From IMG/VR virus record IMGVR_UViG_3300048105_000052, positions 1-20,256 of that record: DNA of 20,256 nt, one strand, 5' to 3'. The notes under the pieces are model-generated. The model did not search any database. It was not told the DNA's origin and saw nothing but the letters and a program-made list of their open reading frames with translations. Each line of letters opens with the position of its first letter. Within the stretch, counting starts at the first letter, position 1. The stretch comes from a virus. Made by a program: the position numbers and the translations under genes. Positions 13,945-18,390 of the stretch are shown piece after piece.

Positions 13945-15765
13945 ATGGCTAACACCTACGTAGACTATACAGGTAACGGTTCAACGACCGACTTTAACTT
14001 TTCATTTCCATACATCAAAACTTCACACGTTGCTGTAGAAGTGAACGACGGACAAGGAGCGGGCGGCACGAACCAATGGGTACGCAAGACGTTGACCACT
14101 GATTACTCAGTTCAAACATCTCCCAATACATTCGTCAGATTTGTTACGGCTCCAGCTTCCAACGTTAAAGTACGAGTGCTGAGAGACAGTGACGCTAATG
14201 AAGGCATCGTAGACTTCGCTAACGGTTCGGTACTTACAGAGACAGAACTTGATAACTCCTACCAACATAATCGTTACCTTGCAGAAGAAGCAGAAGAAGG
14301 CAACACTGGAGGTGCGTTAACAAAGCGAGGAACTGAACATTACAACGCTGATGGATTGAAGCTTGAGAACGTTGCTGATCCAGACTCTGATGATGACGCA
14401 GTAAATAAAGGATATGCAGACACACGTTATGTAGATGCTGCCGGGGATACGATGAGTGGTGACTTAAACATGGGCAGTAATAAGATTACTAACTTAGCTG
14501 ACCCAACTGTCGATGCAGATGTTGCTAATAAGAACTATGTAGACGATACAATCACTACTTCTTTAGCGACAGGTTCTCCTCCTCCCGGTGTCCAGCTCGC
14601 TACTGATCAGATAGAAGACGACGCTATCACTTACGCAAAGTTACAAAACGTATCAGCTAACAATGTATTGATCGGTAACGATAATGGTGTGGGTGTTGAT
14701 GCTCAAGAACTTACAGCAAATGAAGCTCGTACCTTGCTAAATGTAGCAGACGGTGCGACCGCTAACGATAGTGACGCTAACTTAAAAGATAGAGCAAATC
14801 ATACAGGCACACAAACAGCAGCAACTATTTCAGACTTTGATACAGAGGTAGCTAACAACTCAGCCGTAGCTGCTAACACTGCAAAGATAAGTTATACGGA
14901 CGCTGCGGCTGTAGCCCTGAACACTGCAAAGGTGTCGAATGCTACCCACACTGGAGACGCTACGGGGGATACTGCTCTTACTCTTGCTACCGTTAATAGT
15001 AATGTAGGTTCGTTTACTAACGCTGATATAACAGTTAACGCTAAAGGATTAGTAACAGCGGCAAGTAGTGGTACGGGAGGTGCTGCTGGTACTCCTAATT
15101 GGAGTAGTGGGTGGGTAAATACTGACGGCACTACAGCTGTGGCTAACGGGGCTACTCTAACTTTTACTCATAACTTAGGAACAACAAATGTTAACTGGAG
15201 TATGTACGCAAATGCTAGTGCATCCGATAGCGGGGCGGCTTCTATTCACGGTCACGATGTTTTTACGAGCGGTAGGTTTGGTGCATTAGTTAAGGATTTA
15301 ACAAGTAATACAATTACATTTGAGTTGGCGGCTAACGGATATTCAACAGCTAACGGATCAGGTGCGACTATCACCGAAAGTTTCGCAGGGGATTATGTTA
15401 AAGTAGTAGTAAGTGCTAGTGCGACTGTGGGTGCTGTTTCTAAATACAATAGTGGATGGGTAACAACTGACGGTACTACTTCTGTGGCTAATGGTGCTAC
15501 TCTATCTTTCACTCATAGCTTAGGTTCGGATAATTTAATATTTGAAGTGTTTGCTAGAGATACAAGTGGAGGTACGAACTCTGTGAGAATAGATGTTCAA
15601 GACGGAAATAGCGGAGCTTATTACGGTGCTCAAGTAAAAGATATATCAACAAATACAGTTACAATTCAAATAGCGGCAAGCGGTCTTACTAAGTTTAATA
15701 GTAGCGGGGTAGCTGTAGTTACTAATTGGAACACTCAACAGATCAAGGTCGTAGTAATCGGATGA
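13945..15765 (+). CDS. Tail fibre protein with T7 gp17-type N-terminus
   Basis: The product has 606 residues (T7 gp17: 553). Residues 1-125 (YVDYTGNGSTTDFNFSFPYI, then VRVLRDSD and LTETELDNSYQHNRYLAEEA) are the conserved tail-binding domain of T7-like fibres. Residues about 145-200 contain two copies of a fibre repeat (DAAGDTMSGDLNMGSNKITN, NLADPTVDADVANKNYVD). Residues about 250-385 contain shaft-like VAANTAK, VALNTAK and ITVNAKGLVTAA motifs. Residues 387-606 are a tandem pair of about 115-residue beta-rich domains, probably the receptor-binding tip. ATG 13945 follows an A+T-rich leader without a ribosome binding site. The last four bases, ATGA, contain the start of the next gene. Confidence 0.9.
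   Translation: MANTYVDYTGNGSTTDFNFSFPYIKTSHVAVEVNDGQGAGGTNQWVRKTLTTDYSVQTSPNTFVRFVTAPASNVKVRVLRDSDANEGIVDFANGSVLTETELDNSYQHNRYLAEEAEEGNTGGALTKRGTEHYNADGLKLENVADPDSDDDAVNKGYADTRYVDAAGDTMSGDLNMGSNKITNLADPTVDADVANKNYVDDTITTSLATGSPPPGVQLATDQIEDDAITYAKLQNVSANNVLIGNDNGVGVDAQELTANEARTLLNVADGATANDSDANLKDRANHTGTQTAATISDFDTEVANNSAVAANTAKISYTDAAAVALNTAKVSNATHTGDATGDTALTLATVNSNVGSFTNADITVNAKGLVTAASSGTGGAAGTPNWSSGWVNTDGTTAVANGATLTFTHNLGTTNVNWSMYANASASDSGAASIHGHDVFTSGRFGALVKDLTSNTITFELAANGYSTANGSGATITESFAGDYVKVVVSASATVGAVSKYNSGWVTTDGTTSVANGATLSFTHSLGSDNLIFEVFARDTSGGTNSVRIDVQDGNSGAYYGAQVKDISTNTVTIQIAASGLTKFNSSGVAVVTNWNTQQIKVVVIG
15103..15765 (+). repeat. Tandem duplication of the fibre's C-terminal domain
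   Basis: Copy 1 begins at Ser387/Trp390 and copy 2 at Ser503/Trp505, a period of about 115 residues (345 bases). Both open with SGWV.TDGTT.VANGATL.FTH and continue with NL, GA.VKD, T.TI.F/I and a closing KVVV strand. The opening 75 bases are about 80% identical by eye at the DNA level, so the duplication is fairly recent relative to the rest of the gene. Confidence 0.85.
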
Positions 15766-16013
15766 TCGACTCTATCTCAGACTTACTTAACACCGCTCTC
15801 GTCATTGCTATAAGTGTAGTGGGGTGGATTATTAAACGTGTTATTGAACGCTTAGACATTGGTGATAAACGACTTACAAAGATAGAGGTAGAACTTGCCA
15901 CTCAACGAGAACGAGATGCTGCCGTAGAAAGTAGAATAGGTAAAGTGGAAACTGCAATACAAGAGATGCACGGAAAGCTTGACCGCATGATGGAAATATT
16001 AATGAGGAAATAG
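15762..16013 (+). CDS. Single-TM coiled-coil protein after tail fibre (lysis-cassette candidate)
   Basis: The product is 83 residues from ATG 15762, which overlaps the fibre stop as ATGA; an upstream alternative start at 15726 would lie inside the fibre gene and is less likely. One membrane segment (about residues 8-24, LLNTALVIAISVVGWII) is followed by basic residues and a coiled coil to the end (RLTKIEVELATQRERDAAVE, IGKVETAIQEMHGKLDRMME). T7 places its holin (17.5) and inner spanin (18.5) in this interval, but there is no sequence resemblance to gp17.5. The layout, an N-terminal anchor and about 55 residues of coiled coil, suits a small spanin-like or holin-associated protein. The function is inference; the reading frame itself is convincing. 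Confidence 0.75.
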   Translation: MIDSISDLLNTALVIAISVVGWIIKRVIERLDIGDKRLTKIEVELATQRERDAAVESRIGKVETAIQEMHGKLDRMMEILMRK

Positions 16014-16015
16014 AT

Positions 16016-16144
16016 ATGCCAAAAGGATTATACGCAAACATAAATAAACGTAAGAGCTTAGGCATTAGCCGTAGCAAGAAGAAGTCAACGATATCACCTA
16101 AAGCGTACGCTAATATGAAGCGTGGGTTTCCTAAAAGTAAGTAA
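16016..16144 (+). CDS. 42-residue highly basic protein (MPKGLYANI family)
   Basis: This small gene begins MPKGLYANINKRKSLGISRS and ends MKRGFPKSK. Thirteen of its 42 residues are Lys or Arg and there is no Asp or Glu. The same opening, MxKGLYANI, recurs in small basic proteins of many marine phages, which is why I call it a real gene despite its size; that is from memory. Its function is unknown. DNA, RNA or virion packing roles would fit the charge. ATG 16016 is two bases after the previous stop, and its TAA overlaps the next ATG (TAATG), so it sits in a tightly coupled cluster. Confidence 0.78.
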   Translation: MPKGLYANINKRKSLGISRSKKKSTISPKAYANMKRGFPKSK

Positions 16145-16419
16145 TGGCTGAAAAGAAGAAGATGACAGGTTGCAAGCGTCGTGGGCTTGCTATAAATAAA
16201 CCACGAAGAATACGTAAAGGTGAACCCGGATACGGTAAAAAGAAGTTTGTTGTGTGTGCTAAAGAAGGCAGCAAGCATCGAATAATCCGTTTCGGAGACG
16301 CTAAGATGACTATTAAGAAAAGTGATCCAGCCCGTCGTCGTTCTTTTAGAGCTAGACATAAATGCGACCAAAAGAAATCAAAGCTTACAGCGGGTTACTG
16401 GTCATGTAAAAAATGGTAA
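16144..16419 (+). CDS. 91-residue basic four-cysteine protein
   Basis: The product is strongly basic, with cysteines at 10, 38, 74 and 88. Its most distinctive part is the C-terminal half: RFGDAKMTIKKSDPARRRSF, RARHKCD and YWSCKKW. I recognise this block as a conserved unnamed family of aquatic phages and some large viruses, with no assigned function that I know. Four Cys plus His45 and His72 could bind a metal, but the spacing is not a standard zinc finger. The start overlaps the stop of the 42-residue gene. It is likely co-translated with it and could act with it on nucleic acid or in the virion. Confidence 0.82.
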   Translation: MAEKKKMTGCKRRGLAINKPRRIRKGEPGYGKKKFVVCAKEGSKHRIIRFGDAKMTIKKSDPARRRSFRARHKCDQKKSKLTAGYWSCKKW

Positions 16420-16422
16420 CTC

Positions 16423-16656
16423 ATGGCTAGACCTCCTAGAAGACCTGTAGTACGTCCTAATCCTCTTGCGTTTCAACAACGTACGATTTCTGCTACATCC
16501 GCTGCCCAAGCAAAAGAGAATGAGGAGAAAGCAGCAGAGCTGGAAGGTAAAGTAACTACTCTTGAGACTGATCCATTCTTTGTTACTGTTGACGGTGGAG
16601 GAGCGGTAGTGGAAGCAGATATAGATACTTTTGACGGAGGATCACCTGATGCCTAG
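16423..16656 (+). CDS. Small fibre-cassette protein of unknown function
   Basis: The product has 77 residues in three parts: a Pro/Arg-rich N-terminus (MARPPRRPVVRPNP), a helical middle (about 22-48, ATSAAQAKENEEKAAELEGK), and an acidic glycine-rich end (VDGGGAVVEADIDTFDGGSP). I do not recognise a family. Its position directly before an Mtd-N-like gene and two fibre-like genes suggests a structural adaptor of the same appendage; that is inference. It starts three bases after the previous stop and overlaps the next gene by eight bases. Confidence 0.72.
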   Translation: MARPPRRPVVRPNPLAFQQRTISATSAAQAKENEEKAAELEGKVTTLETDPFFVTVDGGGAVVEADIDTFDGGSPDA

Positions 16657-16882
16657 TTTTACTAAACGTATACAACTACGTCGAGGAACTTCTAGCGAGT
16701 GGACGACAGAGAATCCTGTACTACTTGAAGGAGAAATTGGAATCGAATTAGACTCTGCCAGGAATCGTATAAAGATCGGAGACGGTACGACAGCTTGGAA
16801 CTCTTTGCCGTACTTCTTGGACGCTCGTGAAGAAGAGGTTGGAGATTACAATGATTTCTTGACTGCTTTAACTACTCCGTAA
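16649..16882 (+). CDS. Mtd N-terminal-like (hyaluronidase-type) fibre domain protein
   Basis: The product is 77 residues from ATG 16649. GGAGG at 16636-16640, eight bases upstream, decides this start over TTG 16631. The sequence RIQLRRGTSSEWTTENPVLL, EGEIGIELD then IKIGDGTTAWNSLPY is the small beta-domain found at the N-terminus of phage fibres and of the major tropism determinant Mtd, where it trimerises and anchors to the baseplate. Here it stands nearly alone, followed by a short tail ending NDFLTALTTP. That end resembles AEFESALT at the end of the 17346 product. It may be a docking or collar subunit for the fibre-like proteins that follow. Confidence 0.82.
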   Translation: MPSFTKRIQLRRGTSSEWTTENPVLLEGEIGIELDSARNRIKIGDGTTAWNSLPYFLDAREEEVGDYNDFLTALTTP

Positions 16883-16903
16883 TTACAGTAATAACACTGA
16901 GAC

Positions 16904-17248
16904 ATGAGTAGTTTACTTACACAGTTAGGCCAGAAGGTTAAAGCGAAGCTTGATAACAAGTTTGATAAGTCTGGAGGCTTAATAAGCGGTTCGGTAAATA
17001 TCTCACAATCCCTGCAAATTGGATCATATCTTGCATCAAGTTTACCAGAAGTCGGTACATCAGGACGTTTAATATATGTCAGTGATGGGGACGGTAGTGG
17101 TGGTCCTTGTATAGCTGTGGACGATGGAACGGACTGGAAGATCGTAGAGCTTGGCGGTGCGGTACCTACTGCTACTCATATACTTGCGGAAGATGGAGAC
17201 AGCTTGACTACTGAGGTTGGAGACATTCTTATCACTGAAGCTGTTTGA
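16904..17248 (+). CDS. Fibre-like protein sharing its N-terminus with the 17346 product
   Basis: The product has 114 residues. The first 11 (MSSLLTQLGQK) are identical to those of the 17346 product, and the similarity continues more loosely (K.K..LD.K....GG...G....S). A beta region follows, with GTSGRLIYVSDGDGSGGPCI then AVDDGTDWKIVEL, common in phage tail proteins, and a short repeat-like end (LAEDGDSLTTEVGDILITEA). Four of its nine Ile codons are ATA, in contrast to the 17346 gene, which has none. It is probably a virion appendage subunit docking at the same site as its neighbour. ATG 16904 has only a weak upstream TGAG. Confidence 0.75.
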   Translation: MSSLLTQLGQKVKAKLDNKFDKSGGLISGSVNISQSLQIGSYLASSLPEVGTSGRLIYVSDGDGSGGPCIAVDDGTDWKIVELGGAVPTATHILAEDGDSLTTEVGDILITEAV

Positions 17249-17271
17249 CAGGTATTAGCTGTTCTTATAAC
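17245..17271 (+). promoter_or_regulatory. Weak promoter candidate before the 17346 gene
   Basis: TTGACA (17245-17250) overlaps the TGA stop of the preceding gene, as it does before the capsid gene. TATAAC (17266-17271) matches the -10 consensus at five of six positions, but the 15-base spacer is short for sigma70. The rest of the 97-base gap (17249-17345) is A+T-rich. It ends in AGAAAG and the same ATATATTATG leader seen at the capsid gene. Confidence 0.25.
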
Positions 17272-17345
17272 CTTTATTTCATATTTGAACCCGTAGCTAT
17301 TAGTGTTACGATTTTCGGTTAACCTCAAAAGAAAGTATATATATT

Positions 17346-18332
17346 ATGTCTAGTTTGCTTACCCAGTTGGGTCAAAAAACAAAAGTAGAGCTTGATAAGA
17401 AGCTCGCCCTTGCTGGCGGAACCATGACTGGGGCTTTGACCCTTAGCGGTGCTCCTACAGCCAACCTTCACGCCGCTACCAAGCAATATGTTGACGGAGA
17501 AATCTCAACTGTTAGCTCCAGCGTTTCCACTAACGCCAGCAACATCTCCACCAACACAAGTAATATCTCGACTAACACAAGCAACATCAGCGGTCTTCAA
17601 ACTGAACTTGACGCTACTCAAGCTGGTGCAGGTCTTGGTGCTGACGGTTCTTACACAGCTAATGGTTCTGCCAACTACATCAGTTCGGTAACAACTCTTC
17701 AAGCCGCTGATAACGCCCTTGACGCTCAGATCAAAACAAATGCTGATGCGATTGCTTCTAACGACTCTGACATTTCTACCTTACAATCTAACGTAAGCAG
17801 TAATGACTCGGACATCGCTACTCTTCAATCGAACGTTTCTTCGAATGATAGTGACATCAGCACCTTGCAAAGCAATGTTTCCAGTAACGATACTGACATC
17901 TCTGCTCTGCAAACTAAAGCTGGCTCCCTTGCTACTGACGGTAACTCTGCTTCATTCAGTGGTGACATCTCAGCTGCTAACGCTGTATTCTCCGGTAACT
18001 TAACAGTACAAGGAACAACTACTTCCGTACAGACCACCAACATCGATGTTTCTGACTCGTTGATGAATCTGTCGAAAGGTGCCGGTTCCGGTGCTAACGC
18101 TTCTAATGACGGTGGTTTTATCGTTGAGCGTGGTTCTTCCGAATCCAATGTTGCATTCATCTGGGACGAAGGAGACGACAAGTTCAAGGTTCTTTCAACC
18201 TCCGCAACTGCTGCTTCTTCCGACATCTCCGGAACTGACGGCAGTGCTGCTCTTGCTGATCTTGACGCTAATCTCTACCACAACGGTACAGAGTTAGGAA
18301 CAGTCGCTGAGTTCGAATCTGCTCTTACCTGA
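17346..18332 (+). CDS. Trimeric coiled-coil fibre/adhesin protein, codon-optimised
   Basis: The product has 328 residues. Residues 1-50 are an anchor shared with the 16904 product plus a fibre motif (GGTMTGALTLSGAPTANLHA). Residues 60-84 are heptads with Ile/Val at position a and Asn at d. Residues 138-189 are 3.7 copies of a 14-residue repeat (SNDSDISTLQSNVS). Residues 205-328 are a beta-rich head with FSGNLTVQGTTTSVQTTNID and GGFIVERGSSESNVAFIWDE, a block common in marine phage structural proteins. None of its 16 Ile codons is ATA and C-ending codons dominate, as in the capsid gene, pointing to high expression. It has its own leader and terminator. It is likely a virion fibre, decoration or secreted adhesin; which of these cannot be told from sequence. 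Confidence 0.82.
   Translation: MSSLLTQLGQKTKVELDKKLALAGGTMTGALTLSGAPTANLHAATKQYVDGEISTVSSSVSTNASNISTNTSNISTNTSNISGLQTELDATQAGAGLGADGSYTANGSANYISSVTTLQAADNALDAQIKTNADAIASNDSDISTLQSNVSSNDSDIATLQSNVSSNDSDISTLQSNVSSNDTDISALQTKAGSLATDGNSASFSGDISAANAVFSGNLTVQGTTTSVQTTNIDVSDSLMNLSKGAGSGANASNDGGFIVERGSSESNVAFIWDEGDDKFKVLSTSATAASSDISGTDGSAALADLDANLYHNGTELGTVAEFESALT
17526..17591 (+). repeat. Seven-residue coiled-coil repeat array
   Basis: Three 21-base units encode STNASNI, STNTSNI and STNTSNI (residues 61-81), with a following Ser. Ile falls at every a position (67, 74, 81; Val60 before) and Asn at every d position (63, 70, 77). The codons differ between copies while the residues stay the same. Confidence 0.85.
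17757..17912 (+). repeat. Fourteen-residue coiled-coil repeat array
   Basis: Three full 42-base units and a partial fourth encode SNDSDISTLQSNVS-type repeats at residues 138-189. Core positions run I143, L146, V150, N153, I157, L160, V164, N167, I171, L174, V178, N181, I185, L188, so d alternates Leu and Asn. The DNA copies have diverged by synonymous changes, so selection acts on the protein pattern. Confidence 0.88.
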
Positions 18333-18360
18333 TAAGAGTTTCATAGCTCATCATCCATTA

Positions 18361-18390
18361 AGGGGCGGTTCTTAGGAGCCGCCTCTTTTT
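18361..18390 (+). terminator. Rho-independent terminator after the 17346 gene
   Basis: An 11-bp stem, AGGGGCGGTTC (18361-18371) with GAGCCGCCTCT (18376-18386), has two G-T wobbles and a four-base TTAG loop and leads into five T. It separates the codon-biased fibre-like gene from the terminase genes. Confidence 0.92.

Follow-up and report, generated by a model that had tools for sequence, protein, structure and literature searches.

According to extracts of previous studies, the base of gp8.5, the head fibre of phage phi29, is completed by C-terminal strands of the capsid protein (PMC6542822), and the phi29 head fibres leave infectivity unaffected and are linked to an ordered contact with cell walls (PMC7602432). 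Phage Syn5 carries a horn at the pole opposite its tail, as described in an excerpt of PMC10575957. For Klebsiella phages, an excerpt of PMC6872550 presents models in which second receptor-binding proteins attach by short conserved N-terminal peptides. In purified virions of phage P-SS2, ORF066 and ORF067 were represented by 2.5 and 9.5 peptides on average, respectively (PMC2784084, Table 2). Here, we describe four consecutive genes (A to D) whose products could form an accessory fibre on the virion surface of a T7-like phage.

Gene order and location of the cassette

The window analysed in this study is an entire IMG/VR record (G000) with a length of 20,256 b, and its source is an uncultured T7-like phage. 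Upstream of a gp17-type fibre gene lie the genes for the capsid protein, tube, nozzle, gp13/gp14-like proteins and two large proteins, and downstream of it follow a holin-like gene, two small basic genes, A to D, the small terminase and the large terminase. The closest annotated match of the large terminase was found in uncultured phage MedDCM-OCT-S45-C18 (67% identity), followed by the large terminases of Roseobacter phages (~60% identity). The gp17-type fibre (13945-15765) possesses a Phage_T7_tail N-terminal domain (PF03906, E 1.1e-22, Pfam), which the Pfam scan did not find in A to D.

The original prediction, made from the sequence of the window, proposed a second fibre-like cassette of an adaptor-like, an Mtd-N-like, a short fibre-like and a long fibre-like gene behind the gp17-type fibre. 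All four ORFs were recovered at the predicted place, and the cassette does lie downstream of the fibre gene, but it does not adjoin it, as three genes are located in between, namely the holin-like gene (15762-16013), a 42-aa basic gene and a 91-aa basic gene. The features of the cassette are as follows.

16423..16656, plus strand: A, 77-aa adaptor with N-terminal motif PLxxQxxT, likely helical middle and C-terminal DGG tail
16453..16485, plus strand: N-terminal peptide of A, residues 11-21 RPNPLAFQQRT, proposed virion anchor (alignment conservation)
16582..16653, plus strand: DGG tail of A (VTVDGGGAVVEADIDTFDGGSPDA), which may plug into the Mtd_N head of B (sequence and neighbour statistics)
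16649..16882, plus strand: B, stand-alone Mtd_N protein of 77 aa counted from its ATG (PF18454)
16670..16792, plus strand: Mtd_N domain of B, residues 8-48 (Pfam)
16841..16873, plus strand: C-terminal tail of B, GDYNDFLTALT (tail matrix)
16904..17248, plus strand: C, 114-aa short fibre-like protein, its end without the B/D tail
16904..16963, plus strand: N-terminal head of C (MSSLLTQLGQKVKAKLDNKF) (sequence)
17245..17271, plus strand: promoter-like TTGACA (15) TATAAC before D, overlapping the stop codon of C
17346..18332, plus strand: D, 328-aa long fibre with head, helical shaft and conserved beta-rich tip (AlphaFold2)
17346..17405, plus strand: N-terminal head of D (MSSLLTQLGQKTKVELDKKL), common to C (sequence)
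18297..18329, plus strand: C-terminal tail of D, GTVAEFESALT, modelled as helical at 320-327 (tail matrix, AlphaFold2)
18360..18387, plus strand: terminator-like hairpin 3' of D, 12-pair stem plus T tail

The 42-aa and 91-aa basic genes located before A (16016-16419 of the window) recur in very different phages, and relatives of the 91-aa gene were found on at least 592 stretches.

The cassette in related phages

A total of 273 loci were collected via four window proteins (D, B, C and the 91-aa gene), those fetched with the 91-aa gene being mostly from other phages. The order hol-b42-(b91)-A-B-C-D-terS-terL recurs among these loci, and the gene-neighbourhood comparison suggested in the original prediction thus indicates that the four products belong together as an ordered set. 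The frequency of the set was counted in two further collections anchored on terS and on hol, which were not selected for the cassette, overlap with each other and retain near-identical contigs. In the terS-anchored collection, 53 of 80 loci span the site, including 31 ABCD, 11 ABD, 5 empty, 2 AB, 3 B and 1 BD, while the three B loci and some of the ABD loci contain A-like or C-like genes missed by BLAST. In the hol-anchored collection, the site is spanned by 50 of 80 loci (22 ABCD, 10 ABD, 14 empty, 3 AB and 1 BD). The first codons of A are kept in the empty loci L197, L198, L310, L311, L312 and L351 (four contigs, with L197, L310 and L351 being one contig), indicating that deletion of the cassette occurred; no such stump was present in the other four empty loci examined (L200, L201, L284 and L340).

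Several relatives carry variants of the set. In L195, L287, L382 and L354, A is followed by a B fused to a collagen-like stretch, an esterase and further sequence (a SASA carbohydrate esterase, PF03629, E 7.9e-14, in a scan of L195 only), and a C/D-type gene is absent from these four loci. Locus L124 has a 411-aa D, extra head genes and a LamG lectin (PF13385, E 2.1e-29). The set of L330 ends in a homologue of Syn5 gp54, and the same A-B-D-head-gp54-like series was also found in L542, L545 and L547, with 35-68% identity to L330 and with flanking genes unlike those of the window. Occurrence of each gene alone in unrelated contexts, which would speak against a joint structure, was largely not observed, since the module travels as a set elsewhere; the exceptions are A and B without C/D in some relatives and L546, where a head-type gene occurs with no A, B or D on the stretch covered. 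As for the predicted additional adsorption apparatus, the cassette is an addition between the gp17 and terminase genes, and glycan-active cargo (esterase, LamG lectin) is present in relatives, but a function of the A to D products in adsorption and a branched build are hypothetical.

Heads and tails of the cassette proteins

The Mtd_N-like nature predicted for B was confirmed by Pfam (PF18454, E 2.5e-13, 50.2 bits versus a gathering cut-off of 26.3), and phage hyaluronidases of known structure match residues 6-58 of B (best E 1.3e-5). B ends 29 residues beyond the Mtd_N match and has no large C-terminal receptor-binding domain after Mtd_N, as Mtd proper would have.

In protein A, residues R11, P14, L15, Q18 and T21 are invariant (38-row A-B alignment), and the form PLxxQxRT(L/I/V) occurs in 178 of 247 A-annotated ORFs and in six unannotated ORFs (A-like where shown), but in no other annotated gene of the same set. 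A low-confidence model of an A relative contains a helix at residues 11-46. Searches of Pfam (E up to 1) and PHROGs (E up to 0.01) assigned A to no family, and no partner was found for its N-terminal peptide. In 54 distinct pairs (gap-3 loci, e.g., L188, L069, L373), A and B share a reading frame and are separated by one TAA and one codon, and read-through to an A-B fusion is conceivable in these loci. In the window, A and B overlap by 8 nt in different frames, which argues against read-through as a rule. AlphaFold2 prediction of the read-through A-B chain gave a poor model (pLDDT 55) with no confident contact.

The DGG tail of A directly precedes the Mtd_N protein, and we looked at the same position in other phages. 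Outside the window's group, [DN][GC]G was present within the last 22 residues in 46 of 70 distinct ends upstream of Mtd_N versus 15 of 477 other ends, and within the last 12 residues in 34 of 70 versus 10 of 477, where the pattern had been broadened after first inspection of the sequences and kinship is ignored. The 70 ends exclude the window's group, 21 cyanomyovirus-type genes, nine genes lacking a close upstream ORF (within -30..60 nt of the Mtd_N gene) and repeat ends. The 15 background positives include several genes that do lie upstream of Mtd_N but were overlooked by the script, and 24 of the 70 counted ends lack the motif. The upstream ORFs of the 21 cyanomyovirus-type Mtd_N genes end 73-83 nt away without the motif; a DGG tail is also missing upstream of the Mtd_N gene of S-ShM2 and in BPP-1, where Mtd was named and the upstream bbp9 ends ADLGGIA. 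Six cultured phages, hand-picked from 30 Mtd_N matches listed, all have a DGG tail upstream of Mtd_N (P-SS2, S-CBS3, phiST, Anekin, Javan94 and Ingrid). In Arthrobacter phage BruhMoment, gp34 and gp35 have DGGTP ends, each followed by a gene starting with Mtd_N, and in gp36 DGGTP directly precedes a second Mtd_N within one chain. Strict DGG motif ends were found in 2 of 3308 ORFs of another set, neither of them before Mtd_N, indicating that this tail seldom occurs elsewhere and that its specificity is not perfect. A published DGG-Mtd_N link was not found among the papers listed in a literature search that covered few subscription papers; PMC9206674 contains a single mention of the Mtd_N domain.

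In Streptococcus phage Javan94 (L535), an endopeptidase-annotated gene located upstream of the hyaluronate lyase gene ends DGGN, which suggests how hyaluronate lyase may be mounted on the tail.

The C-termini NDFLTALTTP of B and AEFESALT of D, for which a shared motif was considered possible, are both present, and the common motif proved to be real. When ORF ends were scored with a matrix derived from 23 distinct B tails alone, the window D tail was beaten or equalled by none of 2274 distinct other ends of the same loci, and by 4 of 60000 random internal segments. Eleven of 19 distinct D-annotated ends outscore all 2274 other ends; as for the remaining eight, five have two ends above them, one has 7, one has 41 and one has 924, the last (ATTLSTIDGGT) being a different kind of end. 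Coincidence is disfavoured as an origin of the B/D motif by this ranking.

C and D also have their first ~20 residues in common (MSSLLTQLGQK...), a likeness that was missing from the original prediction. In distant relatives, this head is still recognisable, with the remainder diverged (MANILQQIGTTVK, MPDTSSIFYQIGQSTK). No Pfam family was assigned to C, its best cultured-phage match had an E of 0.07, and a search with the C head peptide gave no convincing match.

Among related phages, a head-type gene lies downstream of B in 94 of 94 distinct loci where B is short and bears the tail, versus 0 of 8 distinct loci where B is long, of the esterase type and devoid of the tail (at 90% identity, all collected B sequences fall into 23 clusters of short and 4 clusters of long B). 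With tail and head patterns that were fitted by eye on the sequences before counting, and with kinship ignored, a head gene follows in 14 of 27 cases with the tail versus 8 of 3247 without it outside the window's group, where the 10 distinct positive ends among those listed all come from loci fetched through the head gene; within the group, the corresponding counts are 72 of 154 and 66 of 1921, the latter 66 including genes such as C before D. P values calculated for these counts and for those of DGG and Mtd_N are too optimistic, as the patterns had been adjusted by eye beforehand. The B/D-type tail tends to precede C/D-type heads, in a pattern less independent than that of DGG and Mtd_N. Within the window, the rule holds for B followed by C only: C has no tail though the next gene, D, has the head, and the tail of D precedes terS. 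A further family of about 370-400 aa (GSMADYQ... and relatives) was likewise picked up by the tail pattern, and its members are not followed by a head gene. In L542-L544, a protein of ~150-170 aa ending (D/N)DFLxALQ is encoded directly before a QIG-head protein, which itself ends in a DGG tail in L542 and L544; in L542, a single 81-aa protein thus combines the QIG head and the DGG tail.

Another recurrent C-terminus, NTxLIPxLL, was observed in the 835-aa protein of L330, in L538-L547 and in Syn5 gp55, and this end precedes a QIG-head gene in L542 and L545.

Predicted structure, conservation and expression of D

The AlphaFold2 model of D (52 sequences, mean pLDDT 80, pTM 0.37) consists of two long helices, a beta-rich tip and a final helix formed by the common tail; residues 2-94 are helical, with residues 21-40 at pLDDT 63-66. 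Matches of D in cultured phages fall within residues 83-198 only, i.e., the helical part. In the fold search, the P22 tail needle was retrieved with Z 6.5, which may reflect merely a common coiled coil, and the viral matches were mostly unnamed or fibre-annotated proteins.

Over 26 distinct full-set loci, the D tip has a mean pairwise identity of 0.85, versus 0.11 in the last 200 residues of gp17; the D head reaches 0.97, and the large terminase 0.88 in its first 150 residues. The D tip is nearly as conserved as the terminase and the gp17 tip is variable, suggesting that D is probably not a host-range determinant; a role of D as a variable receptor-binding tip is disfavoured by the same identities.

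Of the codons counted, 71 of 100 end in C in D, as do 70 of 108 in the capsid protein and 566 of 1433 in the other genes counted. After stratification by amino acid, the odds ratio is 4.34 for D (z 6.6), 3.12 for the capsid protein (z 5.3) and 1.46 for gp17. The bias of D is above that of the rest of its own locus in 114 of 115 distinct loci, and D-type proteins without the bias were seen in L330 (0.46) and L542 (0.37, frame approximate). When 78 distinct upstreams were aligned, the TTGACA before D proved largely conserved, the promoter-like element was not among the matches of the standard scan, and a hairpin with a T run follows D in 154 of 211 locus copies, duplicates included. Codon bias, promoter-like element and terminator together suggest that D is made in large amounts, and in the light of the capsid-like codon bias, a fibre on the capsid is no less likely than a branch of the tail.

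Proposed fibre and alternative explanations

We propose, with the chances about evenly balanced, that A-B-C-D is an optional, self-plugging and probably abundant fibre of the virion surface. A would hold the virion through its conserved N-terminal peptide, and its DGG tail would plug into the Mtd_N head of B, a docking suggested by gene adjacency in unrelated phages and by natural fusions. The C-terminal GDYxxFxxAL tail of B would take the common head of C and D, and D, probably a trimer, would contribute a coiled-coil shaft and a conserved tip. Such a fibre would probably help the particle to touch cell-surface glycans or other surfaces, and host range would more likely be set by the variable gp17 tip than by D. 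No proteomics or structure was found for the window's phage group, and we lean towards a fibre on the capsid, like the phi29 head fibres or the Syn5 horn, over one on the tail.

A second fibre branching from the tail appears rather unlikely. In this reading, the head peptide of C/D or protein A would attach to the gp17-type fibre or to the tail, similar to the anchor-branched systems of KP32 or G7C type, and the module would provide a second receptor-binding arm. This reading agrees with the way short conserved N-terminal peptides are used in the Klebsiella models (PMC6872550, excerpt), with the 30 Mtd_N genes listed, which include minor tail proteins, fibres, SGNH hydrolases, esterases and hyaluronate lyase annotations, with the esterase and LamG lectin at this site in relatives, and with the L542 protein just upstream of the QIG-head A, which matches tail-fibre PHROGs. 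However, both the tip and the head of D are about as conserved as the terminase, the codon bias of D is capsid-like and that of gp17 far lower (odds ratio 4.34 versus 1.46), no T4gp10-like domain was detected in the window gp17 by Pfam or PHROGs, and a gp17 66% identical to that of the window occurs without the cassette in L197.

It is improbable that A to D are unrelated late structural genes that have short compositional or paralogous stretches in common and build no joint structure. The tiny size of A, B and C, the A-B model without a confident contact and the presence of A and B without C/D in some relatives would fit such genes, but presence and loss of the genes are set-wise, the same series occurs in other lineages (e.g., L542, L547) and the head/tail adjacency statistics point to a connection. 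Although small genes not far 3' of a fibre gene could encode assembly factors for the gp17 fibre, such as chaperones or trimerisation aids, rather than virion parts, this is very improbable in view of the gp17-type fibres without A to D in L197, L200 and L201 and of P-SS2, where proteins of both the DGG-tail and the Mtd_N type are part of the virion.

Extending the proposed surface fibre, we tentatively suggest, at somewhat less than an even chance, a general plug-and-socket code in tailed phages, in which DGG tails fit Mtd_N heads and (D/E)Fxx(A/G)L tails fit QIG heads, in consecutive genes and with free mixing. Under such mixing, whole fibres could be gained, lost or re-tipped by gene swaps. 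Provided that tails and heads do bind in these pairs, the order of the genes would be enough to tell which fibre protein of a phage is mounted on which other one, both in numerous uncultured phages and in known ones, e.g., P-SS2, Arthrobacter phages and the streptococcal phage with hyaluronate lyase. The code would also account for accessory fibres that are swapped as units, and it yields short, directly testable peptides.

Comparison with known phage systems

The combination of genes in this module and the suggested head/tail pairing are new, and its general kind is already known. B has the Mtd_N head in common with BPP-1 Mtd and streptococcal phage hyaluronidases, whereas it consists of this head and a short tail only, and neither a receptor-binding nor a catalytic domain was found in it. 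ORF066-ORF067 of P-SS2 resemble A-B, as a DGG-tail protein is followed by an Mtd_N fibre, both present in P-SS2 virions; unlike the window's source, P-SS2 is a siphovirus, and its ORF067 runs well past Mtd_N (264 aa). The anchor-branched systems of Klebsiella phage KP32 and E. coli phage G7C combine a T7-type anchor fibre with added proteins that bear a short conserved N-terminal peptide, similar to the C/D head, but the tip encoded by the cassette is conserved rather than variable.

The horn/knob locus of Syn5 (gp52-gp58), of which gp53 and gp54 presumably form the horn, is located between the tail fibre and the large terminase, as is the window cassette, and Syn5 gp59 resembles the 42-aa gene of the window (83% identity over 35 residues). 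However, the order differs, with gp59 after and the terS-like gp49 before the horn/knob genes. Homologues of gp52-gp58 were not found in the window (E 1e-3), and no direct homology of A to D to the Syn5 horn was found; the sole match among the loci searched is the gp54 homologue at the cassette site of L330 (38.8% over 240 aa, E 3e-39). With 28% identity (E 1e-4, 66 loci), gp49 of Syn5 matches the small terminase of the window's group, suggesting that gp49 may be the Syn5 small terminase. Within Syn5 (L274, 30000-46214), gp53 and gp54 have a common C-terminus (ERNYSNP / DRQYNNPV), a possible further shared tail.

Finally, D can be likened to phi29 gp8.5, a coiled-coil fibre present in many copies in phi29. 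gp8.5 has a beta base of ~110 residues, while D is predicted to start with a helical head, and the AlphaFold2 model of D (helical at 2-94) shows no N-terminal beta-barrel capsid-binding base of phi29 type. The completion of the phi29 base by C-terminal strands of the capsid protein provides a precedent for the docking of a tail into a head, as proposed here for the cassette proteins.
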